DNA from: a virus
Virus record (IMG/VR): IMGVR_UViG_3300043446_005775
Span: 1-64,000 of that record
Direction: 5' to 3' (one strand)
DNA: 64,000 nt
In this document: positions 9,001 to 40,221 of the stretch, in pieces
Position numbering within the stretch: position 1 is the first letter of the stretch
Layout of the letters: the number at the start of each line of letters is the position of its first letter
Notes under the pieces: model-generated
Seen by the model: only the letters and a program-made list of their open reading frames with translations
Databases searched by the model: none
Told to the model about the DNA's origin: nothing
Made by a program: the position numbers and the translations under genes

Positions 9001-11899
9001 AACAACAACAATAACGCAGAGAATTGCAAACATTGTTGCAGCTAATATTGCCAGTCCATCACAGTTCTTTATCGCAAGCTTCACTCGTGAATCAGCAGAT
9101 GATCTTCTTGAAAGATTAAATAAGGTTTTTCAGGATGGCACAACCAAGGACAACCTGTTCTCGAAAAGCCAGGTGAATACGTGGCACGGCATGATGATGA
9201 ATCTGCTTACTTCCCCAATAAAATGGCAAATTCCCGAGGGGTTGTTGAGCTTGGGAAAAGTCTTTGATACAGAAGTGATTCCCTTGAGATTTTTCATGAA
9301 AGAGGAGTTTGTTCCCGCGCAGGGAGATGCGCCAGCATACATCAAGCAGTCAGGTCCGGCATTTACAAACGCAAAGTCTGTGGTAATCATGGATAGCGAT
9401 GAGAAATCAGATGAAGCAACAAGGTTGGCAATCATGGAGTTGCGCAAGCAAGCTTGTCAGGAGGCAGGAGTTCCGTTGGGTGTCGGCAGAGATGATCCGG
9501 AACAATTTGGCAAGCATAAGGATTCTTTTGATGTAGGCAATCTTGACAACATGGAGAATATTTTCAAGCAAATCGAAAAGATAAAGAGTTTTGGATATAC
9601 TCCTGCTCAACTTGAGTTGGCTTTTGAGCAGAGAAGAATTGCGCGAATGTCCGACAGCAGCATTCCGCCAATCAGCAAGGAAGATTTGGATCTTCTTGCG
9701 GTTTACAAAAAACATCAGCAATTGATGCAGCAGAGACACTGGATGGATCACACCGATGTCTTGAATGCTGCGTATTCAGTTCTGAGTAATGACAGAAAAT
9801 TGCTTTCAATTTATCAAAGAAAATTCAGGCAATTCTTTGTTGACGAATTCCAGGACCAAAATGGAGTACAGAGCAAGCTTCTGGAGCTTCTTGCCCACAA
9901 AAAGAATGGCGGTTCTGGAAACGTCACCGTTGTGGGAGATGCCAATCAAGCTATTTTCTCTTGGCGCGGATCTTCTTCAGATTTCCTGAACAATTTTGAT
10001 AGAGAGTATGGCGGTGTCAAGAAAACCATCAGCACAAACTACCGCTCAACACAGAATATCATTGAAACTGCAAACAGATTGCAATTGGTAAACAACACCG
10101 AAAGCAGGGCCAAGATGAAACCTCGGCCAAATGCGCCAGTGGGAGATCCGGTCCATCTGATCAAATGCGATACCCAGGACGACCAGATCAATTTCATTGC
10201 AAATCAAATACTGCAACTTATCGGAAAATCGAGACAAGAAGACGCAGTCATACCAACGGGAGAAATGATGTTCAATAAAAAAGACATCATGATTATTTGC
10301 CGCACAAATAGGGAAGCCAGGAGCATCACTGCCCAGCTCAATGCAAAAGGCATTGATGCTGCTGAAGTGCAAAGGCAACACGTAAGAAGACTTGACCGAG
10401 AAGAAGACGACAGGTCGGTCTTTGATCTGGGTTCAAGAGATACTGGCAGAAAAGTGGCAAGATTGGCTCGGTCAAGAAGGGAAACAGGATCACAGCATCT
10501 CTTTGAGGTTGTAGACGCCCTCGCCCTTGCAAATGACTACAACCAAAAACATGATGTGGATTATCCCAAAAAATGGACAAACAAGGCATTGTCCATCATG
10601 TCAACGATATCGCAGATCCTGCAAAAAAATAATGCAGGCATCAAAAAAGGAGTATTTTACAAGGATCTCATAGAGGCATATGCAGACCATCTGGAGACAA
10701 GATCACAGGATTCGCTTTTCCGCTTTTTAATGAAAAGCACTAGCGTTGCGGCCGGAAACTTGAGAGACAGGTTGACAAAAAAACAGCTATCCATTTTGCA
10801 AAGTGTTCAATCAATTGCAGAACAAGCAGCGAGAAAAAAGACAACAACTGCCGAAGGATATCTGGAGGCGATGTTTGGATCACCTACATTTTTCCAAAAG
10901 AAGCTGATGGCAATTGCAAAATCATCAAAAAATAACAAGGCATACAAATTGAATGAAGTCAGGGAATTCCTTGTTGAATTGGGAATTCTGGGAGGAGACG
11001 GAACGCAGCAGATGCGAGCCCTTTCAAGCATTCCCAAAATCCTGAGAATACAAGCCGACAGGGCACGAGCTGAGGCGGAGGCCTTCAATTCAACACAGGC
11101 CAACCAAGTGCGCGTGATTACCATTCATAAGGCAAAGGGAATGGAGGCTCCGGTTGTATTCTTGCCAAGCTGGTCAAGCGGCAACATGCCGTTGGAACAA
11201 AGCAAAACAGGCGGGGCAATACCTCGCGCCGAAGAAGCCAATCTGGGATACGTTGCGCTGACCAGGGCGAAGAGTCTTGCCTATGTGAGTTATGCCGCAA
11301 AATCAGGATCAGGGCGCGAGCAGGAAATTTCCCCTTTTGCTTCCTTGTTCCCAAAGACATCAAGCAAGATATGGGGATTTGACGGATCCTCACTCTCCGT
11401 GACTCGTGATACGACAGGCAGCCGGGCAACATCCTCTGCAGGGCCTAGTCGAGAGTTATCATATGCAGGATATGGATCGTCAGGTGGCATAGATCGGCAA
11501 GAACATGCAGCTCAATTGCTGACACTCCTTGCCCTTTTGCAAGGAAGGAGTCTCATCAGATCATCATACGCCCCTCTTGGGGTGACTCCTTGGGGAAGGC
11601 CTACATTTACGGAAAAAGGCACCATCGCCAGCGCGAGAGGCCACCTATTCAATCCCGAAAGCGAACAAGCCCCCGCTGCTGCTACTCCTCCCTCGCGCGT
11701 TAGGCATGATCCAGATGCTGATTCGGACATTGATTTGGACAATGAACCAGATTTTGATGTTTCAGCCTTCGACTCCTTGGAGAGAAGCTTGAGATTTCCC
11801 AACGTTTCCTCGTTTTTCAAGGCGAATCAACTGAAAAAATCGTTCTTTCGTGAGCAGCCAATACCAAGAGTTCCTTTCCGCGGCAAGATCCTTGTCTAG
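2..11899 (+). CDS. Giant polyvalent-type protein with C-terminal UvrD/Rep SF1A helicase (5' partial)
   Basis: The frame is open to the window edge, so the true start is probably upstream; the first start-like codon inside is TTG at 5 (residue numbers count from it). The first ~2900 residues are soluble and match no family I recognise; ~2945-2985 is a Glu/Lys/Gln-rich coiled coil. The C-terminal ~800 residues hold all SF1A helicase motifs: Walker A ASAGTGKTT at 2993-3001, FTRES (Ia), NTWHGMM (Ib), DEFQD at 3280-3284 (II), VGDANQAIFSWRG from 3310 (III), TNYRST near 3345 (IV), TIHKAKGME near 3706 (V) and YVALTRA at 3749-3755 (VI). It is therefore predicted to be an active ATP-dependent 3'-5' translocase or helicase. 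About 150 Asp-rich residues follow. Ordinary UvrD proteins are ~700 aa, so this is a helicase fused to a huge extra region, as in polyvalent proteins thought to enter the host with phage DNA. The helicase call is firm; delivery is inference. Confidence 0.9.
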   Translation, partial: PLKRPGEIAAALCAEPPREAISLAVTPLQVSKSTHVATKVADFFAPGERGDVRPVRLDTDSETGGVGILNPVADHSVQYEGIPLSHVRRAHLSRNPTTGELEWVRGEARGRLPKVIHGTLLHPFAAADAIDAIHAGSFKDEDGNLHESHVASASPTGIVSRPASSDERFSGADISSVRTNGLLEIHGLPLFHGILAGSNAHDTTGVGAENSYYDEWVKQVQATNPGQLSGEALLGRHGRSLYATPPVVAFERPLNREISRLRQRLAFLQSKTTKLTAEGRMEMRSLEEELRSKEQLMQKIRIPDSASAMADDSDLGQSFFGIAPTLRGGMAPMYGKPSNPLRIEDLTRTVSATGGDRPYLTRGMGLFVDPSKHAGHYAQVVRAMTVPTVGVGGGLRSPNRPFSVIPTRVRVHTSVEPNTRMIPGLPNIPLRNVAALYPTIRGLVQGQVFFSDEDGVPTYVTAADNGPVLYNPRAETRASLVADGLPMYEHWGYAYTKSGTGHTLELTRLQDLKARSEIDPAVKFTDSDRQKLVKLQEEVDVRRKASDLFGYNSDTRPKIPGVPNQYGHPTIGEGPIARRAIPGLDPNAEVSKTRAVFDPLQIGTADRPSYISLSMIPAQSLDNISNTRESPYLRVLHDHDGVPDEVVRIPDRGTTTKRLSPDELTSEELAKKSFRAVVSSVGTSRYRVAMLLPSTAKHPVISTYNVRYSPQTMSYRAPAGAPNLLGQILGSVSEENNRRISQNVDQARIFEELFAARDSDTGRIFQQVIDSSNNPFAMHANLPLFEPVWDAEGNPIPGAYRQSLQASYVSRPLPGISAAEAARAGLQPIYQPPEGNIPPILLDDPYSPMSPDGTRSARGLAVYRLNSDTENGMQLLFPQNANAYFGVYDGQLRPESRRETYTYVNDTIRAAPVRQSKEGSDSTIDKHAAIELSRRLYYRRRNSAELASGQYKIIPVFEHDTQPSKKSNALMMRGWQSELMDGVSSHLETVENPSKEYVENYIIDSFAADPFANSEDKRSSISDDQARAMFNALGVFQMSQPEQFSLQEFKNWMREGLKKGKTDKEIIENRPVIGDAVFWPQDPAPPQVTTPRKKIVGAYRLFSQSRPLSLGECSISEDGRLMIPFKSPDFDQIREGQSLQLYSYNDGTKDVRYQYTPDQLTKRLLDPLLITEVMYDKRSKMAFCRTSQPIASYFGTDPDAIRKLESDLTKSFSITLHRHELHPVLPSDFVPYDGYIEQTDEPIPPDLFMKMLMGNELRDAEKEVAKNILRYFHAAATKRELGNDSEGLLRKIGVPVDAQDSHYMFASLKPEHYTWARFAADTTVDLNSPQYSEVMQLIKSMGKDTVDEISDPQQRIKIFEAIKEVAQNPEKQEKGIAEWLKQPLGQAILNFRNNRKPDADPMVQVKGDEGQLLSRTIGSLRWDPRDKQIQTGGEPITVAQHIFRMLGGGGQSAEQKTVLNGDRYSYTTEQGQQRQLSINGLVNTGNSLLLQEYKGCINDEFLKVIGFGAMADFAANLDDFDKNHSSLEYLDPTKEATGNPFDAIRKKLSLFALSDDNQEKIRLAGQIQKICDSYRNQQLRLVHERIGYYEELRDPQKAMFTALANEGIVGNFDRLQDVLSLIPGMKPQESKIIGFLGESDDFGNRMPGNSGFYRSSSNSNAYECSEAYLNPSAFQIVAGAGQNQDDEDLTFAKALEYPVIRKEVQQVARIGMELLFDPEGVGDAWEKLDEQDKSLLWTHLGLETDPSNLLKGIANYLGIDENDIRAGMMEQIKSSVTNLMSAEIANSASLTALHIQREQEKLRDSAYEAAKTKTAPRIDPPAPLVRRWSPLTNVVPHFRAYAEYGMEKTDRFEGRLPEVVAATLHPDNSFVPPMAPYSDEHELMDIPYGEGVLRGQSPFPACSDTMLQNVMRLKQDARAASRIIYWDNPAKSNDIVTVDQFDGAMFGNSFSSRWAPLRMLGQDSSDDSVSDGAVASITKQYFGIDQEDDAQTVALKIQNAILQGNALNGLLLAADVADQVDVEETVELPGHTRENPKTKNERGTGRVHRIDGIAGQLGRSKAQNGIYAVVDKSPDALKFERTGNSITIQKGLSFSWVSKGQSKIPGQIFSAQKVITDVPITISWSVQSNRININLSDLRKKTEIVSRIIDSDLTPTEEKNAQASAREHATRESNARLFSGAMPQEIPSLSSHDPRVKSAFQSQFDSSLVGTGNGFESVQNAREFELSTGWSLLHEDAIRDAFKDQRFEALIAPHASGQQGIVVATLPQQEDDEKVHAIVFIPMIPAGDTSALHDHTDHIDREGALIEERLYHQARESSYVLGLHSGSLDASSGNPGQTAAERMSRAPNFVNGSRSPLRNGKPDNIRVGRPLENETERMARTKRGGDGTPRSTPSVYGRFVVVSLDTNDFQKRDLAGSYVSFGDVDNKKAKSIEELKIKLQEARKKAKEAGIETVSNVNKRVELMTPTEKLMHAINMLEKEIRTAQLGLSEKQRKINESAEDIVVVPRESITSYWDPTIIMNHSSVAKMTPYLAYWLSQKSKRLDFSDSMKETYDHIQEHPLIDDSAKAALRDGIFSSIEERDRNTDSASANDKLLAKDHVHSRLITIPDGDSKISFLEIPDRVLKIDPTLSDRKIRFSSQQIATFLEELPSQLKKIAAENGLTVWAINGKVSEAFNYTNRAGQPLDAYGYRKKNVIIASTIGVDPMMEFITHFADFIAEKTWLVQDEMQMGQLNSVNKNYGECYTKALDWAKTKIDQAKKIRDSGFRENPDDPMSEELPREKRWIFNEILANISDQDELQDQLKVAKKLFQIYIATLLFSSGSFAESKSGKTHTYVNMPPVGWLNGAMPPPHFVSFDPVEQATALVHKNVRWEQLLNDTNDESKGIKDDAAALSTAVSDYVLSLSKTVAPEEKHINIAKLKINANTDAEQKESITYGIQPVNPSWGAELRTLEQQLKQQTGLTEQEKEQERAKISKLKKTIADAKNTGALAIIASAGTGKTTTITQRIANIVAANIASPSQFFIASFTRESADDLLERLNKVFQDGTTKDNLFSKSQVNTWHGMMMNLLTSPIKWQIPEGLLSLGKVFDTEVIPLRFFMKEEFVPAQGDAPAYIKQSGPAFTNAKSVVIMDSDEKSDEATRLAIMELRKQACQEAGVPLGVGRDDPEQFGKHKDSFDVGNLDNMENIFKQIEKIKSFGYTPAQLELAFEQRRIARMSDSSIPPISKEDLDLLAVYKKHQQLMQQRHWMDHTDVLNAAYSVLSNDRKLLSIYQRKFRQFFVDEFQDQNGVQSKLLELLAHKKNGGSGNVTVVGDANQAIFSWRGSSSDFLNNFDREYGGVKKTISTNYRSTQNIIETANRLQLVNNTESRAKMKPRPNAPVGDPVHLIKCDTQDDQINFIANQILQLIGKSRQEDAVIPTGEMMFNKKDIMIICRTNREARSITAQLNAKGIDAAEVQRQHVRRLDREEDDRSVFDLGSRDTGRKVARLARSRRETGSQHLFEVVDALALANDYNQKHDVDYPKKWTNKALSIMSTISQILQKNNAGIKKGVFYKDLIEAYADHLETRSQDSLFRFLMKSTSVAAGNLRDRLTKKQLSILQSVQSIAEQAARKKTTTAEGYLEAMFGSPTFFQKKLMAIAKSSKNNKAYKLNEVREFLVELGILGGDGTQQMRALSSIPKILRIQADRARAEAEAFNSTQANQVRVITIHKAKGMEAPVVFLPSWSSGNMPLEQSKTGGAIPRAEEANLGYVALTRAKSLAYVSYAAKSGSGREQEISPFASLFPKTSSKIWGFDGSSLSVTRDTTGSRATSSAGPSRELSYAGYGSSGGIDRQEHAAQLLTLLALLQGRSLIRSSYAPLGVTPWGRPTFTEKGTIASARGHLFNPESEQAPAAATPPSRVRHDPDADSDIDLDNEPDFDVSAFDSLERSLRFPNVSSFFKANQLKKSFFREQPIPRVPFRGKILV

Positions 11900-12262: not shown

Positions 12263-15200
12263 ATGAGTGACAACGAACCAGTGGCAACAGAAAGTGGCAC
12301 TTCGTATCTTGCATCTGATATCCATGCCTTGAGCAAAACCAATGATACAGCAGAAAGAAGCATTGGCGTACTTGTCGACAGGCCAGTTGACAGCAGTGCT
12401 GAGCCGCAAACTGATGCCCCTCCGCTGGCGTCAAGTGGAGTGGCATTCGTGCCACATGTCACACCCATGCAACCGAAGGGCCCCATCGGGAGTGAGCAAA
12501 TCGGCGGCAGCGCTGAAACCGATGCTCTCGTTCGCAAGTCGCCGATTGGTCGAGCTATTCAAAGAGCCATTGCAGACGGCGGCGGCGCTCAGGAGCGACC
12601 GCTCTCTGAAGCGAATGTTGCAGTTCCCGGAGGGTTCAAGTACGATGTCAATGGACAGCCAATACTTGTTCGGCCTTCGGGAACCGGACCTTTCACCGTC
12701 ACTCTTGGAGCGAACAGTCCAGCAGTTTCAGTAGCTGATCCGCACGGCGTGGCAGATGTAGCCGCGAGTCACTTGCAAAATGCAAGCATACAAAGGGCTG
12801 CTCCCACCATAGGGACAGCGGCAGATGTCGCAATTGGACAGCACCTGCAAAGACAAGATCATGCAGCGCAGCAGATGCGTCGAAGAAGTCGCAACGCGAC
12901 TGATGATTCAGAATCAGGAATCGGATTTAACGGCAGGGATGAGTTTGGCATCAAGACCATCGACAAGGTCCGATACCAGAGGCTTCTGGATAGAGAAGCC
13001 ACATCATGGAACACACCGCTGGATGCGGATTTTGATTTCGAATTTGTGCCCGGAAAGGGCGCTGATGCGCAAAAAGTCCTTTTGGATATAGTGCCTACAC
13101 GCGACAGTTCAGGGTCATACCTGAAGAAACAACAGCAGGCGGAGGCTTCGCTGCTTCGTCCTGAACGTGAAGCCGCAGAATTGGCATACGCAAGATATCA
13201 CGAGGAGAAAGGAAACCTGGGCTTCGTAGGGAAAATCAATGCCATGCGCAATGGAATCATTGACACGAGCAATGATTCACAAGAATCAGTATCTTATGCA
13301 ACGCACGACAGGACTGTGTACAGGGTTTTTTCGTTTGAAGACAAGGGAAAAAGGAAGGTCGTCATCCGGGAACCCATTATTCCGGGAGCGATAGGAGGCA
13401 CTCCTGCCGGGGAAGAGGCTAGCGTGGATACAGCTTCTGGAGTCCTTTTCCCAGCAGATATCAATCAGGACTTTTCAACGCTTTGGCAATTTCTTGACTC
13501 TCGTGACAACAAGAGAAGCGCAAAGTCAGAATCAATTCTCAGTGCATATGTAAACCGGGTCACAGAAATCGCCAAGGCAAGGTGGGAAGAACATATTGCC
13601 GGAAAAGAAGCAATCGCGGGTCGGCCTCCCATAGTCCAGGCAAGAGAAGGCCTTGTTGGAATAACTCGTGAATCAGGACTCAGTGGAGAGGCACATGCAG
13701 ATGCCGCTCTGGGCTCCGAAGACAGGAGGGGGCCAGATGACGAGGTCGCAGTTGCCAGGCGAATTGCCACACAAGCAGGCGAAGTCGCCCATCAAGCAAA
13801 CCTTAGGGAAATTGAAAACAAAGTTCCTTCAACAATGGATGATGATCATTTAGATGCAATTATTCCAGAATTGGCAGGCAGTTACACGCCGACGGCCCCG
13901 GTCATCGAGACTGATTGGCAAGCAGAAGCCGCATCGCTGTCGGCGGACAAAATCCAATCTGCCGCGGATGCAGTGGAGCGCGATCTGCTTAAGTCGCAAT
14001 CTGCTGTTTCCTCAAGCGAGATGAATGACACTTTTGAAGATGTGAATATTCCGGGATTGAAAAAACGCAGTGAATTTCCGTCACTTGCTGCGTATTTCCA
14101 GGCGGTGAACAAGCGGTACCGGCAAAGCAAAGACTCCGTAGAATTGTTCAATTTGAATATTCGTGTTTACAAGGCATTTATTGCCCAGAAAAATAGTCGA
14201 AGAATTGAAGCGTTCAGAAGATCAAAATTAAGCTTGCATCCGCTTGTGGAAGACAGTGCAAGAAGCGGAACGGCACGATTGCCTAATGTTTCAGCCACGC
14301 TGATGCAAATGGCTTCTTCCTCTTCAAAGGCAGACAATCTCGAAAGCATTGCCATGGCCATTCCAGCAGTGGCAACCGCGGGAATAATTGACGTTCTTCG
14401 CACACAGCAAGGCTCTTCCGACTTTCAAAAAGAGGCTGGCGCGGCAATTGCAAAAACCCTGACCGATTCTCTCGAATCCGCATTGAATCAGCGCCTGAGA
14501 GATGAGCATCTGATTGACAGGGCAGGGTTTGATACGGCGTTTCCTCAAATCGGCCTCAACAATTCCTCATCGGTGTTGTCAGGGTTCTTGAATGATACGC
14601 TGAAAGCCGCGATACCGCAGGATTCACTGGGTTTCAATGAGGAGTTCCGCACAAGGTTCTCAGATGAATATGAGAACAGGCTGAGAATCTCGCAGGCAGC
14701 TCTCTTGTCTGGCAATAAAGAAGCGATACAGGAAGCAAAAGATTCCATCTCTGAATTTGGGAAAAAAGAATTCGTCATGACCAAGGACGAAGAAAAGACT
14801 CTTAAAGCCATGCGAAAAAAGGGAAATTCCTTTATCTCCGATTGCATAGCATGGATGGAAAAAATTGGAAGAAGTGGCAAGCAATTCAAGCTACCGGGAA
14901 AAGACCCCGCAATTGTTTTATCGGAAGCGGCAGAGAAAGGCGACTTCGTAACAGTGTTGCGAGTCTTGGCGATGAATCTTGCCCCAAAGGAATATGTCAC
15001 TCTCAACCGCGATGACAACGCAAGAATGCCTATTGAGAAGCCATCAGAACAAGATCTGGCTGCAGCGAGGGAAAGAATTTTCCGCCTCGTTCATGATCTT
15101 TTGTCAAGTGATCAGTATGCAGACGATGTCAGAAAAGAAGTGCTTGCCACAGAGAATTATAATCTTTATCTACACACAGCAACTGGTCTTTCAGAGCTTG

Positions 15201-18200
15201 TTGGAATCGGTTTCTCAATGGCTGACAGGAAGACAAAGGAATGGCACTTTAGTCCTATCAGGTACATGGCAAACGCCGACATTATGAAGTTTGCAAATGA
15301 AAGAGCAAAAGTTGCCATTGAAAATGGCCTGCGGGGTGACTACCTCTCCAATTACGTACGCAATGCTCTTGCCAAGGAGTTCGATGGCGATCCACGCATC
15401 AGGGTGCCGGTGCTCCCCTCGCGTCGCCTAAACTCGGAGGGTAAGATCCACGTGGCTCTCTCTGTAGGAAATGAGGCGAAATCGATCAATATCGAATCCT
15501 ATGCTATGCAGGCAATACGGACAGTGCAGAAAGGGATTCAGGATCAATTAGAGAGGCACCTCAAGTCAGGAAAGTCACGTGAGACATTCAAGGGGGATTA
15601 TTCCAATCTTGGCTTGGATGAACCAAGAGCTCCGACAGGGTTGTTGCCAAAGCGATTGCCAGATGATGCCCCTGAGAAATTGAGGGATGACTGGCAGCAT
15701 GCGGCTGGGTTGTACAAGAAAAGCCAACGCGCGGAATATTACAAATCGCTTGACGCCAAAAGGCGAGCCGCGCTTGACATGTGCATTGGCAAAAACCCGG
15801 TGATTGATTCAGGTGATTTTGACTGGGGAAATGATGATCACAAGGCTTTGCTTGGAGATTGGCTATTTTCAAGATATCCGCAAGAGTCCTTGGGGAAACT
15901 CACGACGAGAAAAACGCAACAAGTCCCCGTTGCCGCGTACATGCAGCAATTTCTCCAGAATCCTGCTGATGGAGAATTGATCAGAAAGCTGGAGGCAGCC
16001 CTTGGAAACAAGCCTGTTGTCGTTGACAGGAAAACATTTGATCCCGCATTGAAGGCGAAGGCAACTCCTGAGATGCTGCTGGCAACCAATCCTCTTTGGT
16101 CCGCGTTTCTTTCGGCCAATGACCCGGAAAAATTGATCAATCATCCGTTTCAGCTTTCATTTTTCCATTCCATTTTTCAATCGGGATTGAAAAAAATAGA
16201 CGGACAATCATTGAAACCTGTTGAGGGAAGAACCAAATCAGCATTTGATGAGGAAGTAAATCGCATTGCAGGCTGGATAGAAGGCCAGCTGGGAAGAAGA
16301 GCAATTGAAGCGGGAGCTGCAGACAAGAAAATCAAAGCATCTGAAACTGTGTCCTTTTGGTCACAAAATGCTGTCTTGGCAGAACACACCGCGGCTTTCC
16401 TTTCTGCTGGAAACGAAGAATTAATCAAAGAGATAGAGAGGCAATTGCTTCAAAACCCTGGCGACCAGAAATTGCAGGACGATTTGAATGAACTGCAAAT
16501 AATCCAGGAAGATTCCGAGAAGGATCCAAGCAGAAAATCGATTAGATTCACACGTCGGCAGAGGGATGCCAACAACAACGACCTGGGAGCAGTTGCTCCA
16601 GATATGTTAGCCGATTATGTCCAGGCAAAATCCCGAATCATGCGCGACTACTCGCCTGTGAATGATTTGTCAACCCATCAGCCAATTCCCGTGGGAATTC
16701 TTGCGGGTATCGTCAAGGACTCTTTGCTGAGGTCACGCAATCCATCCGATTTCATTCTTGACTTGTCTCCGGCAATACCAAGAGATTCACAGGCAACTTC
16801 ACTGGCAGCCATCGATTCCGTTGCCGCAGATGTGCAAAAAGAAATAGATCAGAGAAAATCACAACAGGAGCTTGAGCAATCAGCAATGGGGCCAGCGAGC
16901 CTTGTTCCAGTAACCGAATCGTCAGTGCGGGAAATCATGAGTGAATCAAAGAAAAAGGGAATCATTCCAATAGGAAGATCAAGTCATGCATATCCGGCAA
17001 CGCTCAGGGGGAATCATGGAAAATCCAAGGAATTCCCTGTGATCTATACGTATGGATTCAGCGAATTGGTGGAATCTCCCAGCATTGTGCATTTGATTAG
17101 CGATCCCATTGCTGCTTCCGCAGGAGCTCAGTACGGAGCAATTAGTTCATTGGGGGATGTGCAAAATGCAATAAGGACTGTCAGCGACTCACTCGGATCA
17201 ATCGATGGCATGGATAGCGAAGCGCCGCTTCTTACCAGAAAACAGCACATTGACATGCATGTCACTACGTGGATGCAAAAATTGCAGACTTCTGAAAATT
17301 TCGGAGAGATTGACAACATAATCAGGGAACTGAACAAAGTTGACCAAAACCAACAACTTGACCTTTCTGACATGTATAGTTCTGATTGGACAAAGAAATT
17401 TTCAAAACTGCTAGAGAGATATTGCCAATCCAACGCCATAGCAATGATCACACCGGCTGATTCCGCTTACCCGCCATACCTGCTCAAGAGCCCCGGACGA
17501 AGACAATCCGGTGATGACGATCCTACTCCCTACACGCCCTCCGTGTTGTTTGTGAAAGGAAATCCACGCGCATTCCAACAAGTGCGCGATAATTCCGAGA
17601 GGGTTGTAACATGCATTGGCGTTGGAGAAGGAAAGACACACGGCGAGGATGTAGAGCACGGAAATGCCGTTTCTCAAAAAGCATGCGAAGTTGTCACGCG
17701 CCTTTCTTCGGCGTTCAAAGACAAGTCGTGGACTATTGTTACTTCATTGACTGGAGGCACAAACGATGCCATTCTTCAAACTGCGTTGCGATGGCAAATG
17801 CCAACAATTATCGTCGCTCCCTTTGGATTCAACACTTCTGCCGAATTGGGCTCATTTGGCCCAAGATTCAAGGATGCAAAGAGCAGGCTAAATGATGCAT
17901 TGGACAAAAACGCCGTTGTCATGACGGAATGCTTGCCTGGAATGGGAATGCAGAGACCAAAAAATGGGGCAGGCAGGGATTCTGTTCGCGAACATCAGCG
18001 CTTGCTCGCGGAACTGTCTTCTGCGACGATTGTCATTTCGGCGACTGGCACTCGCAATTGGGTTCAGACAGAAGGACAACGGAAAGGAATAAGTCCTGAG
18101 TATCTCGCCGCGATGATTGACGGATCGAGCGTGTCGAAGGTATTGAACGCCAAAGTTGAGGATTCCATCCCGATCTATGTTGCGCAACAGGCCGCAAGGC

Positions 18201-21200
18201 AAAAGAGGGCAGTGTTCGTCTTGCGTCCTGACACAATTGTCAACCATGAAGCAGCCATGGCGGAAGGAAGAATGAGCGGAAATGTGCAGCTTACGTCATC
18301 TTCGATCAGGAATGTCTTTTTCCTTGATACCGATGATCCAAAAAAGCAGCTTGAAAAATACATCAGCAAAGCGCCAATAGACATACCTCCTGTGAGCAAA
18401 GCGCAATCCGCCGTGGAAGACATTCTGAATGTGGCGCAAATGAGCAGGCCGCAAGGCATGACCGACGAGGAATTTCTCGGCACATTGTCAAATGTCTTGG
18501 TGGCGAAGAATGCAAGGATGATTGCCACTACGCGTCATTGGCTATCAGGAATCAAAGCGCAAAGGAATCCTGACGGAAGCCCTGTTTCGGTATTGATTGA
18601 TTCTCCAGATACCGACGATGCAAGCTTGCGAAATCTGCTTCTTGCAAAGGAAATGGGAGTTCACACAGTCGTTGTTCCCAGTCAAGCCATCTATTCGAGA
18701 ACAAGGATGCCGGATGAATACGAAATCACAGAAGAAGGCCCTGTGCTGAAGAAATTGAATTCACTCGATGACTGGGCTCCTCTCAAAAACAACGACAGGC
18801 TTTCTGGAACAAGCCTCATAGAACTGACATTTCGCGCAGACAACACGTCATCGGATCCGTATAGATTGGCTTTTGAGACGCCGGAGCTGGCGTTTGCGGC
18901 GACGAGGTTTTCAACAAGGGCTGACAGGGAGGCGCTTGCCGGACTATCCAATGATGACAGGCACTACAGGCAGAAATTAGCCAAGATACGAAAGGCAGAG
19001 CGAGAAAACAAGCTTTCCGCCATTCGTCCCGAGCAAGCAATCAAGGAAATGTATGAAATCCTGAGGCAAAAATTCAACTCGGAAACCTACAGGACCATAT
19101 TGATGCATACTGGAACCGCAGATATTGTGCACGGAAGCGATGGGGAAGATTTCTGGGGAGTTCCAAATTTCATGTCTTTATCAAAAACATCATTGATCAA
19201 GACTGGCATTGGGAACAACATGCTTGGAAAACTCCTGATGCATATCCGTTCTTTCATTAGTGCCTATCCTTCGAGCCGCCTTCCCAAGACTCTTTCTGAT
19301 GATTCCTGCCAAAGAATGCTGGATGGCGGAAGAAAACGAGACGAAACGATGGCGTGGCATGAGGCGCTTGGCCTCATGGGGCTTTCAGACAGGGACATCA
19401 CCCTTGCTCCAACCGTGCAAAGAGCCGTGGAGCCATTGAAGACCAAGGAGTTGCGCATAGGAATCACCGGCTCACGGGATCTCGATGGCTTGCTTACCGA
19501 AGACATGGTCAGGCATGCCCTTGAGCGGTCCATCAAGATCGCTCGCCCCGGCCCGAAGACCATTTCACCGCAGGCCGGGGCAGATCCCGCAAAGAAGCGC
19601 TCTGCGTGGGAAATGGCACATGGCATTGACATAGCGAATCCGGGACAAGCCAGTGATGCATTGTACACGGCTCATTCCATCGTTCATGGCGGAGCTGCTG
19701 GAGTCGATTCCGTTGCTGCTGCATATTTTCGCGATCATAATTTTACGAATGTCACAGCAATTCCCTATGAAGAACTCTCGACAAAGGAGGATAATTTTCA
19801 CAGGAAAGATCGCACTGCAGGACACAGGAGAAACACCAAGATCGTTGCAGATTGTGATGTATTGGTTGCAATCTGGGATGGGAAAAGTGCTGGCACATTA
19901 GACGCAATCATGAAAGGCATACGAATGCAAAAACGCATGCTGATCTGGACGCCGGATGGCAAAGGCGGGTTGGCCCTTCAGAAAATAAATCCGGCCGAAA
20001 AAGGAACCATAACATTGTCAACGCCCTTTTCCCCTGTTGTCAAGGAAGGTTCCGCAATACATGATTATCATCATGCTGGAGCAAATGTTGCCAGCTCGGA
20101 AGCACGTGCGTTTGCAGAAAAACTTAGAACCGCATCGCTTGTCTTGGGCCTGCATCATTCTTCCCGGTACGCTCAAGGATTGTATAGGGATTCAAGGACG
20201 ATTGGCGCACAAAAACCGATCATCGTTCTTGGCGGAGGCCAATCGCATCTGTCGGAAGGTTCTGCGGACGACCAGAAACGTGCAGACAGTGAGCTCCTCG
20301 GGTTCTTCCCTGCAGACCAGAAGTTGACGGAAGGACTCATTTACAAGGGTCGCCTCAATGGGGAATGGAATAATTATCATCATGTTTCTGATCCGGACAG
20401 TTATGCCGCTCTTGGATATCAATCAACAAGGAATGCAGACTCATTTGCAGCAAGCAATACTGCTGCGTCAAGGGCATTGCAGGAAGTGATTAACGCCAGA
20501 ACACGTTCCGGATATTCAAATCTCACAAGATCCCAGTTGGCAGCAGGCTTGGGCGCACTCTTGGGGCTTGGTAGCGCAACAGCGTCGCAAGAGGATGTTA
20601 AATCGCATAGAATTAGCGATATCGACACGCAGATACTTGAGACAAGGCTTAATCCGCTTCTTGACGACGCCGAAAAACTGGAGAAGGTCAGAAGCCTTGA
20701 GGAAGAAAAGCAGAAAATTATCAATGAAGTGCCATCTCGGACGGTAGCATTGGCAAAAAGCGAGGATGGTCAGCGCGGATTGCAAGCCATGGGACATGGC
20801 GCACATCGATCCATTCCTTATGCGGAAGAGGTCGCGCCATCGAATCATCAGTATGCCGAAACCGCAGTCGTCTCAAGCGAAGCAATCCCGCACATATATG
20901 CATCAATAAGTATTTCCATGGCTCCCAGCAAGAAGAAAACAAACGTTATCGATTCAACCATTCATGTGATGCTTTATCACAGGGATGGACAAGATGATCC
21001 CATACCAGTGCAAAGCATGGTATACCACATTCCTGATTCTCCACTTGTAACCACGCTTGCGCAACCATCGGACGAGAGCGCCCATACCCGGGGAACAAAA
21101 TCCGGAAGGTGGCTGGATGGATATGGCAACTACCGGCGGATCATTCGCATGCTTTCCGGAGATTTGGCAAAGGATTTGCTGGCCAGATATCATGCTGGAT

Positions 21201-24200
21201 CAATTCACCAGGAAGTGAGGGCAATCACGAGAACCCGGGATGTTGCCAACAACATTCCGGGAAGAGGTGTCGGCATTCCATTGCAAATTGCGCCGCAATC
21301 GGATGCGTTAACGAGTCTGCAAAGGCAAACATCGGCCACACCATCCGTGCATGCGTTTGATCCGGATTCAGTAGACTTGAAAAGAGTGAGCAATGGAGAT
21401 CAATTATCAAAAGATGCGGTTGACAGAGGGAGGCCCAGAATAATAAGCCAGGAGCAGATAAATGCCTATGTCGGGCAATGCAGGGCACGGCGAAGCTGGC
21501 CTCCCGTTTCAGAAGCAAGGATTTCTCAACGGCAACGCGAAGACACGAGAGCAAGCACATTCAATCCCCGGTATCAATTCACCCCCAATGTGAGGAAAGG
21601 GGACAAATTATCTCCATTATTTACCTCGTGGACCGTCCTTGGTGGAGAGACGACAAAATTTGAGGCAAAACGTGTCGCGCAGGACAGTCTTCGTTCAGCG
21701 TACGGACAATCTCAAGCAACACTTGCGGAAAGATCAGCCATTCAAAATGCTGATGGAACATTCAAGGTCAGTGCGAACCCCCAGAAACCGACAACCACTG
21801 CACTTGCACTATTTGGTCCGGCAACACGGATGGTCAGGGGTGCCCCCATTGATCGAGAGACTGGAGGGAACGAGCCTTACAACATCAATATCCTTGCCCT
21901 GCTTGGCGGAAGTCCGTTACATGTGTCCCCAGGAACTGGCCATTCGCCAATAGTTCCCAATGATGCCGTTCATCCCGAATATGCGTATGTCGCCGGAGGG
22001 AACCTTTCATCAGCAATCACCGACTTGTTGAAAATTCCCGAGCAGGGGAAGATCACCCTTGACGGATACTCGGATGCAGCATTATGTGTCGACCTTCAGC
22101 AGTATTTGCAACTTTCCCCAAAAGAGTCCTTGACACGCAAGCAACTGGAGCCTATCGTTGAGGATCTTCTCCGTCGACGCATCGGAGGAAGAAAGGCGCT
22201 GGATCAATTGGATTACGGACGACCAGTTGATAACCTAGCCTTGGTTGCCGGAGTGGGCGCTCCCATGTCAATACCCGCGCAATGGGACCGGTTGCGAGAT
22301 TCATTGTTCTATCTTGGAAAAAGAACGGCATTTTCTGAAGATGCTCCACGCGCAGTGATCGATGAGAATCTTCAGCAAGCAATGAGAAAATCAAGATTGA
22401 AGGTTGCAACAGGCTTGGAATTGCTTGCCTCGCTGGTTGTTGAAAGGGCCAATGGGAAAAGTGCATCACCGTTGGGCGCGGGAAAGACGACGACAATGCA
22501 AGACTACCTGCGTCGTTTCCTTCCTCCGGGCGCCACAACTTTCGACGATGATGCGCTCGCACGAAAAAACCTTGATGAGCATATTCAGGAGACCATGAAA
22601 ATGTTCGTGTTCCTGAGAAGTATCGACTCCGGATCCGATGCTTCTCAGATGCGAATATTCCAGCAAGGCAGCGGAAAAACCGCAGTTGAGCCGCTTGTGA
22701 AAAACCTCAGGAACGCGCTCTCGATCACATCAACGGACAATAGCAGAAAAATCATCTCGCAAATGGGATATCTTGCCTCAGCAATGGATGTCATGAATTC
22801 AATGAACGTGGACTTCAATCACGAGGACAAGATTTCACCAGAATCAACCATAGCAAAGATCTTTTCCCCATCATCGGCAAGCTCATCTGGAAAAACAAAG
22901 CTAATCATTGTTCCCGGATCAGTTTGGCAAGCAAAAACTATTCCAGGAGCAAATTTCTATGATCAAGGCAGGAATGAATTGTCTCCTCCGGAAAGAATGA
23001 ATCTCCTCGCAAACGTGATTGTTTGCTCAAGGAACGAGGAAATAAACAAGATCTTCCTTGGCATTACCGCAGGAACTGACAAGCAAACCCAGGCAGGATC
23101 CTTGAGCGAAATTCTTGACAAAGGCCAGAAAGGCGTTAGCGTCCCTGAAGGAGATGACCATTATGTCTACATAGGATGTCCATTAGGAGAGGATATCGGA
23201 GAAAACGTGTTGCATTTCGATGAAACAAAATCTGCGGAGTACAAGGCAAGCGTAGCGTTGGCCATGGCTCACGCGGCAAACATCAAGGCTGGGCGCAAGG
23301 CTGGCGTGGGCATCAACCTTGCAAGCGACGACGACAGGTTCAGGACCCTCCAGCAAAACAATGTTGATAAATTCAACCGGATTGCCAGCATGGCGCTGAA
23401 TGCCGCAAATGGTACACTTTCCGCAGATCATGCCATACGAGAGCGCCAGGTCCGCGCTCTCGTATGGGCCACACTGTATGTTGATGGGGTGCATGACGAA
23501 AAACGCAAGCGGCAGACCGCGGAACCTGACAGCCCCGTGCTGGTATACGCTCCTGAAGAATCCCTGATCGGCCGCTATGTCGGAGAAGACGGGAACGGTA
23601 TCATCACTCCTGTCGAGCGCACCAACTGGATGGAAAGCCTGTCTGATCTTCGCAATATCGTATTGGGGAACATGGGCATCAAGAGGCCAGCGACAGTCAT
23701 CAGCTTGTCAACCATTGCTCCTCCTGCTCCCGAAGTGGAAGAGACGCCTGCGGGAACAATCGCTGCACCGGCCTCCGTTGGTCAGCGAAGCAGAAAGGAG
23801 GAACTTATCAGGGAGGTTGATGATCTCAAGGCAGAATTGGGAGATCAGGCTCCGAAACCAGTAACATTTGGCGGACGTGCCGGAGACATGGGGGTCGGGG
23901 TCAATTCCCTGCAAGCGGAATTGACGCGAAGACTTGTCGCCGCGCAAGACGAGCTTTCCACGCTTGTGATGGACGGCCTTTCCTCAGAAGGAGAAAAAAA
24001 AGCCGCCGATGCAAAGAGGGAAGAATTCGAAGAGGCGAGGAAAGCATACGAGCAAGCCGCCGAGGCAAGGAGGGAGTCTTCGGCCCCCGAGATGGTAATC
24101 ACTGGTTTCCGGTCTGAATTGTCGAACTGGTCTGTCGAGAATCCGGACATATTCCCAACATTCACGTATGTGAACGACAAGGGGGAACAAAAGCCTTTTA

Positions 24201-25723
24201 TTGTTCCCCACGGTGCTGCACAATTTGAACTTTTTTTCGGTTCCGGAGCATTTAGTGTTTCACCGGAAAACATTGAAACCAGAATGCGTGAAGGAATGGA
24301 ATTTGTGGAGGCTGCAAAAAGACTGATAAGGGAGCATTCTCAATTGCCAAGAGGCAACAACAGCGACGAAAGCAATGAATTTGCCCGGATGCTCGCCAAG
24401 AATTCATTTCGCATTCCAGGAAGCAGCACACAGCAATTCGTTAATTACCAGACCTATCTGGAGGCGATTGCGGGTTGGCAATCTGCAGCAAAAGCGGACA
24501 CAGTGGAAAACCGACGATCATACATGAGGATGATCCGGGATCTTGCCATAATCGAAGAACAATCCGCGCAACAGAAAATGATCGCTGCATATGGAGATCA
24601 TTCAGAGCCAGCAATAACGAGAGCCTTGGAAGATCGTCAGAAATACATTGATGCTGCATCAGCGCTGAATGCCGTCATTGATTCCATGAGCGCCTCGCAA
24701 AAACTCATTTGCAGGCAACCGGAAAAAATTCCATTGGCAGACCAATCATCAGCTGTCCCGGTTGAGCTCATGCAATCAAAGGAGTACGATCATCTCAAGG
24801 ATGTCGCGAAGGAACTCAAGGACAAGATGGGTGGGACAACATTCCGGTTGAATCCGTATGAGTTGAATCTGATCCTCACGCAACATGACCCGGCAAATAC
24901 GATTGGCAACGTCCTGTTGCGAGGTACCCTGTTTTCAAAAGGCGCTCCGTTGATTCATTATTTGCAGTCTGTATCCCTGGAGAGCGATGTACTCTATTCG
25001 CCTCTCGCACAAGCATTCAGGATTTCAAGATACTTCACCGTGAACGATCTGATTACCGTATTGACTGACTTACGAAAGGCCCTAACTGCCGAAAAGAAGA
25101 AAAGCGATCCCGATTCCGAAAGAATTGACAAGCTGACATCACAAATTCACCGGGCGACCGGAATGCTCAACGCCGCAGCACATCCATGTGACGACAATGA
25201 CAAGGAGACACTGTTTGGCGCGTTTGACAGATTCTATGCGGAGGCGTCCAGAGCGTTTGCCCTGCTGCTTGGAAACCGGAGCAGGAAACTTGAAGACATG
25301 GAAAACATATGGAAAAATAGCCAGGGAAATCCGATAGGCACATTGCGTTTCTGGCGTGACCAGTTCATGTTCGTGAACGACAGTGAACGCATTTCCGGCC
25401 AAATAGAGGTTGAAACCAACGGCAACGTTCGTCCAGCTCCTTCATACGAGTGGACACAGGCGAAAGAGTGGGTTCCCCTCAAGAAAACATCCTTTCAGGA
25501 ATGGATACGAAGAATATCCCCTGATATTCAAAGTCAGAACACTACTGATCAGCGCATTCAGGACTTCAACTTGCTCCGAGGAAAATTCCCAGATATTGCA
25601 AAATCACTTTCTTCGATATACAAAATGCCGTATTTCGCAAAGTCCCGGCGATTGCCCAAGGTCCGAAAGAAACGCACAGGTCTCCTCCTTCGTTCTTATG
25701 ATAAAATAACATACAGAGCATGA
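12263..25723 (+). CDS. Giant polyvalent-type protein: DprA-like, NADAR and SLOG/DUF2493 domains (4486 aa)
   Basis: ATG follows AAGGAT at 12251-12256. The N-terminal ~1700 residues are unassigned. Residues ~1734-2000 resemble DprA: YPPYL at 1736-1740, PSVLFVKGN, a Rossmann strand VVTCIGVGEG at 1781, TSLTGGTNDA near 1826-1836 in place of the usual SGxAxGID loop, and HQRLLAELSSATIVISA near 1910-1926 in place of RNRIIAGLS. Residues ~2170-2335 match NADAR: FETPELAFAATRF near 2203, KFNSE, HTGTADIVHGS, DFWGV, then NNMLGKLLMHIRSF. NADAR enzymes remove ADP-ribose from guanine bases or related adducts. Residues ~2397-2560 match the DUF2493/YspA SLOG family: RIGITGSRD at 2398, HGGAAGVDS at 2475-2483, HRRN and VAIWDGKSAGT at 2535-2545. 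The C-terminal ~1900 residues are unassigned, with a weak GAGKTTT near 3405. The domain set fits a polyvalent protein dealing with nucleotide or ADP-ribose chemistry and incoming DNA. NADAR and SLOG calls are strong; DprA-like is divergent but good. Confidence 0.88.
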   Translation: MSDNEPVATESGTSYLASDIHALSKTNDTAERSIGVLVDRPVDSSAEPQTDAPPLASSGVAFVPHVTPMQPKGPIGSEQIGGSAETDALVRKSPIGRAIQRAIADGGGAQERPLSEANVAVPGGFKYDVNGQPILVRPSGTGPFTVTLGANSPAVSVADPHGVADVAASHLQNASIQRAAPTIGTAADVAIGQHLQRQDHAAQQMRRRSRNATDDSESGIGFNGRDEFGIKTIDKVRYQRLLDREATSWNTPLDADFDFEFVPGKGADAQKVLLDIVPTRDSSGSYLKKQQQAEASLLRPEREAAELAYARYHEEKGNLGFVGKINAMRNGIIDTSNDSQESVSYATHDRTVYRVFSFEDKGKRKVVIREPIIPGAIGGTPAGEEASVDTASGVLFPADINQDFSTLWQFLDSRDNKRSAKSESILSAYVNRVTEIAKARWEEHIAGKEAIAGRPPIVQAREGLVGITRESGLSGEAHADAALGSEDRRGPDDEVAVARRIATQAGEVAHQANLREIENKVPSTMDDDHLDAIIPELAGSYTPTAPVIETDWQAEAASLSADKIQSAADAVERDLLKSQSAVSSSEMNDTFEDVNIPGLKKRSEFPSLAAYFQAVNKRYRQSKDSVELFNLNIRVYKAFIAQKNSRRIEAFRRSKLSLHPLVEDSARSGTARLPNVSATLMQMASSSSKADNLESIAMAIPAVATAGIIDVLRTQQGSSDFQKEAGAAIAKTLTDSLESALNQRLRDEHLIDRAGFDTAFPQIGLNNSSSVLSGFLNDTLKAAIPQDSLGFNEEFRTRFSDEYENRLRISQAALLSGNKEAIQEAKDSISEFGKKEFVMTKDEEKTLKAMRKKGNSFISDCIAWMEKIGRSGKQFKLPGKDPAIVLSEAAEKGDFVTVLRVLAMNLAPKEYVTLNRDDNARMPIEKPSEQDLAAARERIFRLVHDLLSSDQYADDVRKEVLATENYNLYLHTATGLSELVGIGFSMADRKTKEWHFSPIRYMANADIMKFANERAKVAIENGLRGDYLSNYVRNALAKEFDGDPRIRVPVLPSRRLNSEGKIHVALSVGNEAKSINIESYAMQAIRTVQKGIQDQLERHLKSGKSRETFKGDYSNLGLDEPRAPTGLLPKRLPDDAPEKLRDDWQHAAGLYKKSQRAEYYKSLDAKRRAALDMCIGKNPVIDSGDFDWGNDDHKALLGDWLFSRYPQESLGKLTTRKTQQVPVAAYMQQFLQNPADGELIRKLEAALGNKPVVVDRKTFDPALKAKATPEMLLATNPLWSAFLSANDPEKLINHPFQLSFFHSIFQSGLKKIDGQSLKPVEGRTKSAFDEEVNRIAGWIEGQLGRRAIEAGAADKKIKASETVSFWSQNAVLAEHTAAFLSAGNEELIKEIERQLLQNPGDQKLQDDLNELQIIQEDSEKDPSRKSIRFTRRQRDANNNDLGAVAPDMLADYVQAKSRIMRDYSPVNDLSTHQPIPVGILAGIVKDSLLRSRNPSDFILDLSPAIPRDSQATSLAAIDSVAADVQKEIDQRKSQQELEQSAMGPASLVPVTESSVREIMSESKKKGIIPIGRSSHAYPATLRGNHGKSKEFPVIYTYGFSELVESPSIVHLISDPIAASAGAQYGAISSLGDVQNAIRTVSDSLGSIDGMDSEAPLLTRKQHIDMHVTTWMQKLQTSENFGEIDNIIRELNKVDQNQQLDLSDMYSSDWTKKFSKLLERYCQSNAIAMITPADSAYPPYLLKSPGRRQSGDDDPTPYTPSVLFVKGNPRAFQQVRDNSERVVTCIGVGEGKTHGEDVEHGNAVSQKACEVVTRLSSAFKDKSWTIVTSLTGGTNDAILQTALRWQMPTIIVAPFGFNTSAELGSFGPRFKDAKSRLNDALDKNAVVMTECLPGMGMQRPKNGAGRDSVREHQRLLAELSSATIVISATGTRNWVQTEGQRKGISPEYLAAMIDGSSVSKVLNAKVEDSIPIYVAQQAARQKRAVFVLRPDTIVNHEAAMAEGRMSGNVQLTSSSIRNVFFLDTDDPKKQLEKYISKAPIDIPPVSKAQSAVEDILNVAQMSRPQGMTDEEFLGTLSNVLVAKNARMIATTRHWLSGIKAQRNPDGSPVSVLIDSPDTDDASLRNLLLAKEMGVHTVVVPSQAIYSRTRMPDEYEITEEGPVLKKLNSLDDWAPLKNNDRLSGTSLIELTFRADNTSSDPYRLAFETPELAFAATRFSTRADREALAGLSNDDRHYRQKLAKIRKAERENKLSAIRPEQAIKEMYEILRQKFNSETYRTILMHTGTADIVHGSDGEDFWGVPNFMSLSKTSLIKTGIGNNMLGKLLMHIRSFISAYPSSRLPKTLSDDSCQRMLDGGRKRDETMAWHEALGLMGLSDRDITLAPTVQRAVEPLKTKELRIGITGSRDLDGLLTEDMVRHALERSIKIARPGPKTISPQAGADPAKKRSAWEMAHGIDIANPGQASDALYTAHSIVHGGAAGVDSVAAAYFRDHNFTNVTAIPYEELSTKEDNFHRKDRTAGHRRNTKIVADCDVLVAIWDGKSAGTLDAIMKGIRMQKRMLIWTPDGKGGLALQKINPAEKGTITLSTPFSPVVKEGSAIHDYHHAGANVASSEARAFAEKLRTASLVLGLHHSSRYAQGLYRDSRTIGAQKPIIVLGGGQSHLSEGSADDQKRADSELLGFFPADQKLTEGLIYKGRLNGEWNNYHHVSDPDSYAALGYQSTRNADSFAASNTAASRALQEVINARTRSGYSNLTRSQLAAGLGALLGLGSATASQEDVKSHRISDIDTQILETRLNPLLDDAEKLEKVRSLEEEKQKIINEVPSRTVALAKSEDGQRGLQAMGHGAHRSIPYAEEVAPSNHQYAETAVVSSEAIPHIYASISISMAPSKKKTNVIDSTIHVMLYHRDGQDDPIPVQSMVYHIPDSPLVTTLAQPSDESAHTRGTKSGRWLDGYGNYRRIIRMLSGDLAKDLLARYHAGSIHQEVRAITRTRDVANNIPGRGVGIPLQIAPQSDALTSLQRQTSATPSVHAFDPDSVDLKRVSNGDQLSKDAVDRGRPRIISQEQINAYVGQCRARRSWPPVSEARISQRQREDTRASTFNPRYQFTPNVRKGDKLSPLFTSWTVLGGETTKFEAKRVAQDSLRSAYGQSQATLAERSAIQNADGTFKVSANPQKPTTTALALFGPATRMVRGAPIDRETGGNEPYNINILALLGGSPLHVSPGTGHSPIVPNDAVHPEYAYVAGGNLSSAITDLLKIPEQGKITLDGYSDAALCVDLQQYLQLSPKESLTRKQLEPIVEDLLRRRIGGRKALDQLDYGRPVDNLALVAGVGAPMSIPAQWDRLRDSLFYLGKRTAFSEDAPRAVIDENLQQAMRKSRLKVATGLELLASLVVERANGKSASPLGAGKTTTMQDYLRRFLPPGATTFDDDALARKNLDEHIQETMKMFVFLRSIDSGSDASQMRIFQQGSGKTAVEPLVKNLRNALSITSTDNSRKIISQMGYLASAMDVMNSMNVDFNHEDKISPESTIAKIFSPSSASSSGKTKLIIVPGSVWQAKTIPGANFYDQGRNELSPPERMNLLANVIVCSRNEEINKIFLGITAGTDKQTQAGSLSEILDKGQKGVSVPEGDDHYVYIGCPLGEDIGENVLHFDETKSAEYKASVALAMAHAANIKAGRKAGVGINLASDDDRFRTLQQNNVDKFNRIASMALNAANGTLSADHAIRERQVRALVWATLYVDGVHDEKRKRQTAEPDSPVLVYAPEESLIGRYVGEDGNGIITPVERTNWMESLSDLRNIVLGNMGIKRPATVISLSTIAPPAPEVEETPAGTIAAPASVGQRSRKEELIREVDDLKAELGDQAPKPVTFGGRAGDMGVGVNSLQAELTRRLVAAQDELSTLVMDGLSSEGEKKAADAKREEFEEARKAYEQAAEARRESSAPEMVITGFRSELSNWSVENPDIFPTFTYVNDKGEQKPFIVPHGAAQFELFFGSGAFSVSPENIETRMREGMEFVEAAKRLIREHSQLPRGNNSDESNEFARMLAKNSFRIPGSSTQQFVNYQTYLEAIAGWQSAAKADTVENRRSYMRMIRDLAIIEEQSAQQKMIAAYGDHSEPAITRALEDRQKYIDAASALNAVIDSMSASQKLICRQPEKIPLADQSSAVPVELMQSKEYDHLKDVAKELKDKMGGTTFRLNPYELNLILTQHDPANTIGNVLLRGTLFSKGAPLIHYLQSVSLESDVLYSPLAQAFRISRYFTVNDLITVLTDLRKALTAEKKKSDPDSERIDKLTSQIHRATGMLNAAAHPCDDNDKETLFGAFDRFYAEASRAFALLLGNRSRKLEDMENIWKNSQGNPIGTLRFWRDQFMFVNDSERISGQIEVETNGNVRPAPSYEWTQAKEWVPLKKTSFQEWIRRISPDIQSQNTTDQRIQDFNLLRGKFPDIAKSLSSIYKMPYFAKSRRLPKVRKKRTGLLLRSYDKITYRA

Positions 25724-25726: not shown

Positions 25727-26392
25727 ATGAGCAACAAGGAATTAGGCAGCAAAGGATATGGTCACTGGATGTTCCTTCCCGGAGGGCAGCTGTCTTATGT
25801 GGGAGGAGCAATGACCGCACTTCACCCTCATTATGAAATCAGGAAGACAAAGCACAAAGTCAAGAAAATAACAAAAGCCAAGATGCATGAACTGGAATCA
25901 AATCATGATCACCAGATGATCATCGTTGGGGACAGCAGCGTTCCTCACAATGATCTTCTCGGATTGACTGAGGCGATCAAGAAAATATTGCGATCAAGCA
26001 TGAATATAAAAAGGGGATCTTCCAGGCATGGAGATGAGCATGACATGGCATTTGGAAGCACATCCATCTTTGCCAACACAAGCAGGGACGCAGACGGCAT
26101 GAATTTCGTCATCATTGATGGAAACGGACACCCGGTCATGGTTACCAGGCGCGAAAGCAATCATCGTGATCCAACAGCTTCGTTGCTTAACGATGTTGCC
26201 GAATATCTTGCGCACGAACACCACAGACTTGCATGGCACATTCATGACAAGGATGACAATGAGATAAACGGCGCACCTGATCACATATTGCCAAACATGT
26301 CTGCGTTGCGTTGCTGGCCAGTGCATGCGTCACAGATGATTTTTCGCTGTCCACCGCTGATCGACACGGATCCCGAGGAAAGCGATGAATAG
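25727..26392 (+). CDS. Unknown His-rich protein (221 aa)
   Basis: ATG lies 3 nt after the stop of the giant DprA/NADAR gene with only a weak purine-rich ribosome site, so translation is probably coupled. The protein is soluble and His-rich (HDHQMIIVG, GDEHDMAFG, AHEHHRLAWHIHDKDD), which might bind metal, but spacing fits no metalloenzyme motif I know. The N-terminus has a Gly-rich stretch (GYGHWMFLPGGQLSYVGG) followed by a Lys-rich segment. The gene overlaps the next start by 8 nt, placing it in one translational unit with the HD-domain gene. Function unknown. Confidence 0.75.
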   Translation: MSNKELGSKGYGHWMFLPGGQLSYVGGAMTALHPHYEIRKTKHKVKKITKAKMHELESNHDHQMIIVGDSSVPHNDLLGLTEAIKKILRSSMNIKRGSSRHGDEHDMAFGSTSIFANTSRDADGMNFVIIDGNGHPVMVTRRESNHRDPTASLLNDVAEYLAHEHHRLAWHIHDKDDNEINGAPDHILPNMSALRCWPVHASQMIFRCPPLIDTDPEESDE

Positions 26393-39515: not shown

Positions 39516-39517
39516 TC

Positions 39518-40195: not shown

Positions 40196-40210
40196 CCTGC
40201 CGTGCGACGG

Positions 40211-40221
40211 TGTGGTATAGT
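40211..40221 (+). promoter_or_regulatory. Candidate late-promoter box TGTGGTATAGT
   Basis: This 11-mer lies 15 nt before the ATG at 40237 and differs at one base from TGTGGTATACT at 52341. The TG preceding TATA could act as an extended -10, or it may be a phage-specific late box. Confidence 0.4.

Follow-up and report, generated by a model that had tools for sequence, protein, structure and literature searches.

RESULTS

Three conflict-type domains in one giant phage protein

The stretch of DNA analyzed here (the window) comprises the first 64 kb (positions 1 to 64,000) of the 77,255-base IMG/VR virus record IMGVR_UViG_3300043446_005775, which is classed as linear and is probably a fragment; the 13 kb of the record past the window were also read. 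Within the window, one stop-free open reading frame (ORF) encodes a protein of 4486 amino acids (aa), P0001, that combines a DprA/ShosA-like domain, a NADAR domain, and a SLOG domain of the DUF2493/YAcAr type. The gene and its parts lie as follows.

12263..25723, plus strand: giant polyvalent-type protein P0001, 4486 aa, stop-free ORF
17231..18274, plus strand: DprA/ShosA-like domain, residues ~1657-2004, with an N-terminal helical part and a degenerate SLOG/Rossmann part
18563..18757, plus strand: conserved segment, residues ~2101-2165, VSVLIDSPDTDDASLRNLLLAKEMGVHTVVVP, between the DprA-like and NADAR domains
18758..19267, plus strand: NADAR domain, residues ~2166-2335, from Pfam, pocket residues, and the YbiA/NADAR fold
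19442..20002, plus strand: DUF2493/YAcAr-type SLOG domain, residues ~2394-2580, from PHROGs, motifs, fold, and profile

The presence of all three domains in this single phage ORF, proposed in an initial annotation of the sequence, is confirmed by Pfam, PHROGs, independent profiles, and fold matches. The interval given there (17460-19950) is off by no more than some tens of bases: matches to the three families cover ~17423-20002. The fold of the DprA-like domain begins earlier than its family match, near residue 1657 (nucleotide 17231). The NADAR and SLOG test profiles were built from other viral sequences only, leaving out both the window and its ortholog in a related contig (G010), and their scores were set against the best of 300 block shuffles. 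AlphaFold models were made from two regional alignments, one of 29 sequences for the NADAR-SLOG region and one of three sequences for the DprA-like part.

The Pfam NADAR model (PF08719) matches residues 2191-2331 with an E value of 5.5e-10 and 40.2 bits, over its cut-off of 35.1, and phrog_1017 covers the same domain at 4e-12. The independent viral NADAR profile scores 57.8 bits against the window (E value, 1.5e-17), as opposed to 5.1 bits for the best shuffle. In the structure model, the NADAR core has a predicted local distance difference test (pLDDT) score of mostly ~80-96 and aligns with YbiA over 131 residues (Z score, 10.9; root mean square deviation [rmsd], 3.0) and with the P. nicotianae NADAR (8bau) over 147 residues (Z, 9.4; rmsd, 4.1).

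Of the three catalytic residues of NADAR domains, the window keeps one. The glutamate equivalent to E43/E88 is present as E2208, as it is in all 80 viral NADARs with a residue at this position. The catalytic lysine (K50/K95), which occurs in 78 of 80 viral NADARs, is replaced by arginine (R2215) in the window and by leucine in G010. The third acid is glutamate in 78 of 81 viral NADARs and histidine in the remaining three, namely, the window (H2290), G010, and a stand-alone NADAR (L066) that retains the catalytic lysine. W2298 and the GxNxLGKLLMxxR core are retained in the window, with the glutamate and the core motif present in both orthologs, and the LSNF motif of NADARs is replaced in the window by an unrelated, longer stretch. 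The domain may hydrolyze its ligand, may use an altered chemistry, or may only bind.

The SLOG domain is covered by phrog_289 (4e-11), and the independent viral SLOG profile scores 54.3 bits against the window (E value, 2.6e-16; best shuffle, 4.4 bits). The Pfam YAcAr model (DUF2493, PF10686) gives only a partial match (E value, 0.04; 14.2 bits versus a cut-off of 28.2). This model was rejected as proof of SLOG absence in related contigs, since it misses even the G010 domain and is thus insensitive here. Searches of the PDB with single-domain sequences were uninformative; profile searches succeeded for the NADAR and DprA-like domains but failed for SLOG. The modeled domain (pLDDT mostly ~80-96) matches YpsA (Z, 11.9), DprA (Z, ~11), and the cyclic ADP-ribose-binding SLOG domain of ThsA (Z, 9.5). 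The motifs of the type (GxxGSR, GGAxGxD, RN..IV..D, and WD..S.GT) are intact, reading GITGSR, HGGAAGVD, AGHRRNTKIVADCD, and WDGKSAGT, and the motif positions common to a stand-alone phage DUF2493 protein are kept. Judged by these motifs, SLOG is the only one of the three domains that keeps its full set, and it is the part of the region most likely to be functional.

The DprA-like domain is eroded in its signature positions. Pfam DNA_processg_A (PF02481) matches residues 1721-1928 just under its cut-off (E value, 2.2e-6; 27.4 bits versus 29.6), and TIGR00732 scores 20.5 bits, under its curated threshold of 191. In family searches, PADLOC ShosA (7.8e-8) beats NCBIfam dprA (2.1e-4). Counterparts of the domain are recovered in G010 (1.9e-29) and in a second related contig, G013 (4.1e-22), both of which pass the PF02481 cut-off. 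The structure model is of low confidence (mean pLDDT, 47.6; best stretches, 74-84). Its top-listed match is ShosA (Z, 15.8; rmsd, 4.2; 238 residues), followed by DprA over ~230 residues (Z, 15.0-15.6; 15.0 over 231 residues), and both rank above the other SLOG matches.

The DprA motifs read GVGE, TSLTGGTN, and EHQR in the window; GTAK, SGMAKGID, and HRNR in G010; and GTRN, SGLAHGTD, and KRNR in G013. The arginine of the GxR loop (R115 in S. pneumoniae, R52 in H. pylori), which helps to bind single-stranded DNA (ssDNA), as does a basic patch of five lysines (PMC4066776), is present in G013 and absent from the window and G010, with R115 placed in GxR from the residue numbering of the alignment. 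SGxAxGxD and RNR are gone in the window. On this reading of the motifs, the domain in the window is degenerate and is unlikely to load RecA or to shield ssDNA, and the earlier proposal that it protects incoming DNA is not upheld.

The initial annotation had staked its identification on NADAR and SLOG folds and on conserved pocket residues. Both folds were recovered in the structure models; the pocket residues were in part lost, because the DprA signature residues and the NADAR lysine and third acid are substituted.

The highest identity to G010 among all 100-residue blocks of the protein, 49%, is that of residues 2101-2200, which take in the segment between the DprA-like and NADAR domains. Residues 2101-2165 have no family match in Pfam or PHROGs and no assigned fold, model confidence being low there; the segment may be an extra Rossmann-like half or an extension of NADAR.

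Conservation and history of the fusion

Thirteen related contigs were recovered with the major head protein as the query. One of them, G010, has a pair of giant ORFs (4202 and 4272 aa) in the same order as in the window: the 4202-aa ORF is the counterpart of a UvrD-helicase giant that precedes P0001, and the 4272-aa ORF aligns with P0001 from end to end, with the same domain order. Identity between the two proteins is 35% in the DprA-like domain, 37% in NADAR, 47% in SLOG, and 30% in the first 1500 residues. Because a separate contig has the same order, the fusion is no assembly accident but real and maintained.

The 184-kb contig G013 has the order UvrD (2570 aa), DprA (2228 aa), a 231-aa ORF, and an HD-domain ORF (1371 aa), followed by head genes as in the window (ORF lengths from stop to stop). 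Neither NADAR nor SLOG was detected in its canonical 2228-aa DprA giant. A NADAR domain occurs elsewhere in G013, in an 849-aa protein (L033:9596-12145, minus strand; contig ~146.6-149.1 kb) that joins a DarG-like macro domain to a NADAR whose catalytic residues are the customary E/K/E; the handling of ADP-ribose is thus a recurrent theme of the clade. We infer that the pairing of a DprA-type giant with a neighboring helicase giant came first and that the lineage of the window and G010 acquired NADAR and SLOG later; their loss in G013 could account for the same distribution.

Isolated phages and plasmids gave no match to the whole region at either the DNA or the protein level, and a single-protein pattern search of viral contigs returned nothing. 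An alignment-based search returned only G010 and one weak NADAR-region locus from viral contigs and nothing from bacterial and archaeal genomes, a search with the DprA alignment returned G010 only, and relatives reached via the helicase had little in common beyond the helicase. Among 80 viral NADAR loci, all ORFs are 100-242 aa in length except the G010 giant and one 851-aa Macro+NADAR frame.

In another viral contig, stand-alone NADAR and SLOG genes are directly adjacent (L081:5830-6743), and at three further loci (L101, L120, and L121) a SLOG gene lies ~1.5-3.5 kb from a NADAR gene. A related phage (G017) carries a class II ribonucleotide reductase split by an intein with a LAGLIDADG endonuclease (L057:10981-14721, minus strand).

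Genomic setting

P0001 stands between the helicase giant and a run of genes on the same strand that leads into a virion module.

5..11899, plus strand: neighboring giant of no fewer than 3964 aa, its ORF running off the record start, with a UvrD-type helicase toward the C terminus (nucleotides ~8954-11299)
25727..26392, plus strand: 221-aa protein, 3 bp past the giant gene, in the same place in G013
26385..30323, plus strand: HD-domain protein of 1312 aa, overlapping the 221-aa gene, conserved in G010 and G013
39443..62103, plus strand: structural module of a contractile-tailed phage, with head protease, major head protein, tail sheath, and tail/baseplate proteins

Downstream of P0001, the 221-aa gene and the HD-domain gene are followed by smaller genes and then by the head and tail genes. 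The intergenic gaps on this strand are 3, -8, -17, 19, 0, -1, and 230 bases, and scans for promoters and terminators gave matches no more numerous than those in shuffles.

Among the genes downstream are a pentapeptide-repeat protein of 1848 aa (30998-36544) and a DUF559/Vsr-like endonuclease (37213-37812). Two consecutive genes of near-equal length (50911-51585 and 51616-52284) both match the virion-protein family phrog_985 and are probably a tandem duplication. The major head protein (43541-45469) aligns with that of G013 at both ends only, at 76-79% identity, and its unaligned residues (~340-546) suggest a variable inserted region.

DISCUSSION

Interpretation of the DprA-like/NADAR/SLOG region

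The reading that we favor, which seems to us plausible if slightly short of probable, is that P0001, rather than being a simple DNA-repair enzyme, is a giant polyvalent phage protein in which the SLOG-NADAR part binds or breaks down soluble ADP-ribose signals and the DprA-like domain serves as a scaffold or binding module. One polypeptide unites several conflict-type domains; its gene lies shortly before the virion genes of a contractile-tailed phage, and the protein is probably delivered into the host, or synthesized, in time for the very start of infection. The DUF2493-type SLOG and the NADAR domain would be the most likely working pair of the region, binding and possibly hydrolyzing small immune signals derived from ADP-ribose, for example, isomers of cyclic ADP-ribose or phosphates of ADP-ribose. 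The older resident of this gene position would be the DprA-like domain, whose ssDNA-binding signature has been lost along this lineage and which is now probably a scaffold or a module that binds a ligand or partner. The theme of conflict and ADP-ribose raised by the initial annotation has independent backing, since NADAR and SLOG domains are known to co-occur and fuse in phages and have been proposed there to counter soluble ADP-ribose signals (Iyer 2022, PMC9503650).

Four points weigh against the favored reading. The fusion is found in two contigs only (the window and G010). Two of the three catalytic NADAR positions are substituted, so the domain may only bind or be inactive. Pfam detects no peptidase or other typical polyvalent domain elsewhere in the giant, and ~3500 residues are unexplained. 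Finally, the identity and order of the domains, the conserved fusion, the lost residues, and the gene order are observations, but packaging into the virion and any enzymatic activity, as well as the class of ligand and the order of domain gain, are matters that we infer. A bolder version, in which an injected megaprotein joins a signal-binding SLOG, a rewired NADAR, and a repurposed DprA/ShosA-like domain into a sponge and eraser of ADP-ribose immune signals, with a chemistry unlike that of known NADARs, is doubtful.

The losses in NADAR and in the DprA-like domain bear most directly on the model first proposed for this region, in which NADAR strips ADP-ribose from guanine in phage DNA (DarT1 type) and incoming ssDNA is shielded or loaded by the DprA-like domain. 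Several kinds of NADAR, including T4 gp30.3, hydrolyze guanine-ADP-ribose in vitro, and a helicase giant is encoded next door. In the E. coli C7 NADAR the lysine is essential, and the K95R variant, with the arginine found in the window, is still active in vitro. However, K95R gave no rescue from DarT1 toxicity, and neither did the T4 NADAR, whose class is described as His-type; histidine is reported for phage NADARs of the gp30.3 type, which aligns poorly with the window. Hydrolysis in vitro with no rescue in cells therefore disfavors DarT reversal and DNA protection as the function here, and arginine in the window, leucine at the same position in G010, and histidine at the third acid count against reversal of DarT-type modification as the first choice. 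The DNA-protecting half of the model must also contend with the missing GxR arginine, RNR, and SGxAxGxD. We regard this model as improbable. As for kinship with the antitoxin NADARs that accompany DarT1, no DarT/ART toxin gene was found in the ORFs scanned, which come from a fragment and were not all scanned with every library.

A DprA-like domain without its DNA-binding residues would suit a protein-binding role, and a ShosA-like role of this sort is conceivable, as ShosA heads the list of structural matches and is the better family match. The domain would then mimic ShosA, the DprA-like antitoxin of the ShosTA defense, and neutralize a toxin of the host, and NADAR and SLOG would be independent modules. 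The ShosA and DprA chains are nevertheless tied in Z score (15.8, 15.6, and 15.0), the solved ShosA sequence has the RNR and SGLAxGID that the window lacks, and no toxin partner is known, although a ShosT partner gene was not specifically sought; this account is also improbable. Erosion of signature positions in the DprA-like and NADAR domains alike, the place of the gene among virion genes, and the absence of enzyme signatures from most of the protein would also fit a large structural or internal-head protein whose inactive enzyme folds are relics serving only as a scaffold. What speaks against relics is that SLOG, among the most conserved parts of the protein, keeps the motif positions of stand-alone phage SLOGs and that the catalytic glutamate (E2208 in the window) and the core motif are found in the NADAR of both orthologs, making this explanation unlikely, if a serious contender.

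If SLOG-NADAR works as the favored reading has it, the giant possibly includes a pre-loaded phage answer to NAD-derived immune signaling, alongside other functions. Because the otherwise near-invariant lysine is lost only in the window and G010, this divergent ortholog pair offers a natural experiment to show which catalytic residues a NADAR can do without. For DprA-like domains in phages generally, the binding residues should be checked before such domains are called DNA-loading factors.

Comparison with known systems

Polyvalent proteins, described for phages and conjugative elements, are multidomain proteins, often of >2000 aa, that are encoded by phages or plasmids and are likely packaged or transferred with the DNA (Iyer 2017, PMC5512222). 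P0001 resembles them in being a very long phage protein in which several conflict-type domains are fused, encoded with virion genes: it has 4486 aa and comes from a virus record in which head and tail genes follow it in the same orientation, and it fits every point that could be checked. UvrD helicases, as in the neighboring giant, are also known from such proteins. It differs in that the 2017 text has no NADAR and mentions DprA only once, in passing, and in that hallmark peptidases (e.g., zincin-like), which can be divergent, were undetected by Pfam.

At the level of domains, phage NADAR and YAcAr-type SLOG are known as fusions or neighbors, but the exemplars among viral NADAR, SLOG, and Macro proteins are described as typically stand-alone (PMC9503650), and DprA is conserved in some jumbo phages (PMC7824862). 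The NADAR domain shares its fold, catalytic glutamate, WG, and GxNxLGKLLMxxR core with the NADAR hydrolases (YbiA, DarT1-associated NADAR, and T4 gp30.3), but departs from them at the lysine (arginine, or leucine in the ortholog), the third acid (histidine), and LSNF. Likewise, the DprA-like domain shares the DprA/ShosA fold over ~230 residues, N-terminal helical part included, but lacks the ssDNA-binding arginine and two signature motifs. We found neither this trio in a protein of >4000 aa nor NADARs lacking the catalytic lysine described in the open-licence texts of PubMed Central, figures excluded. The separate ideas have been published, and the kind of protein is known (Iyer 2017, 2022); the giant DprA-like/NADAR/SLOG trio appears to be a new version of it.

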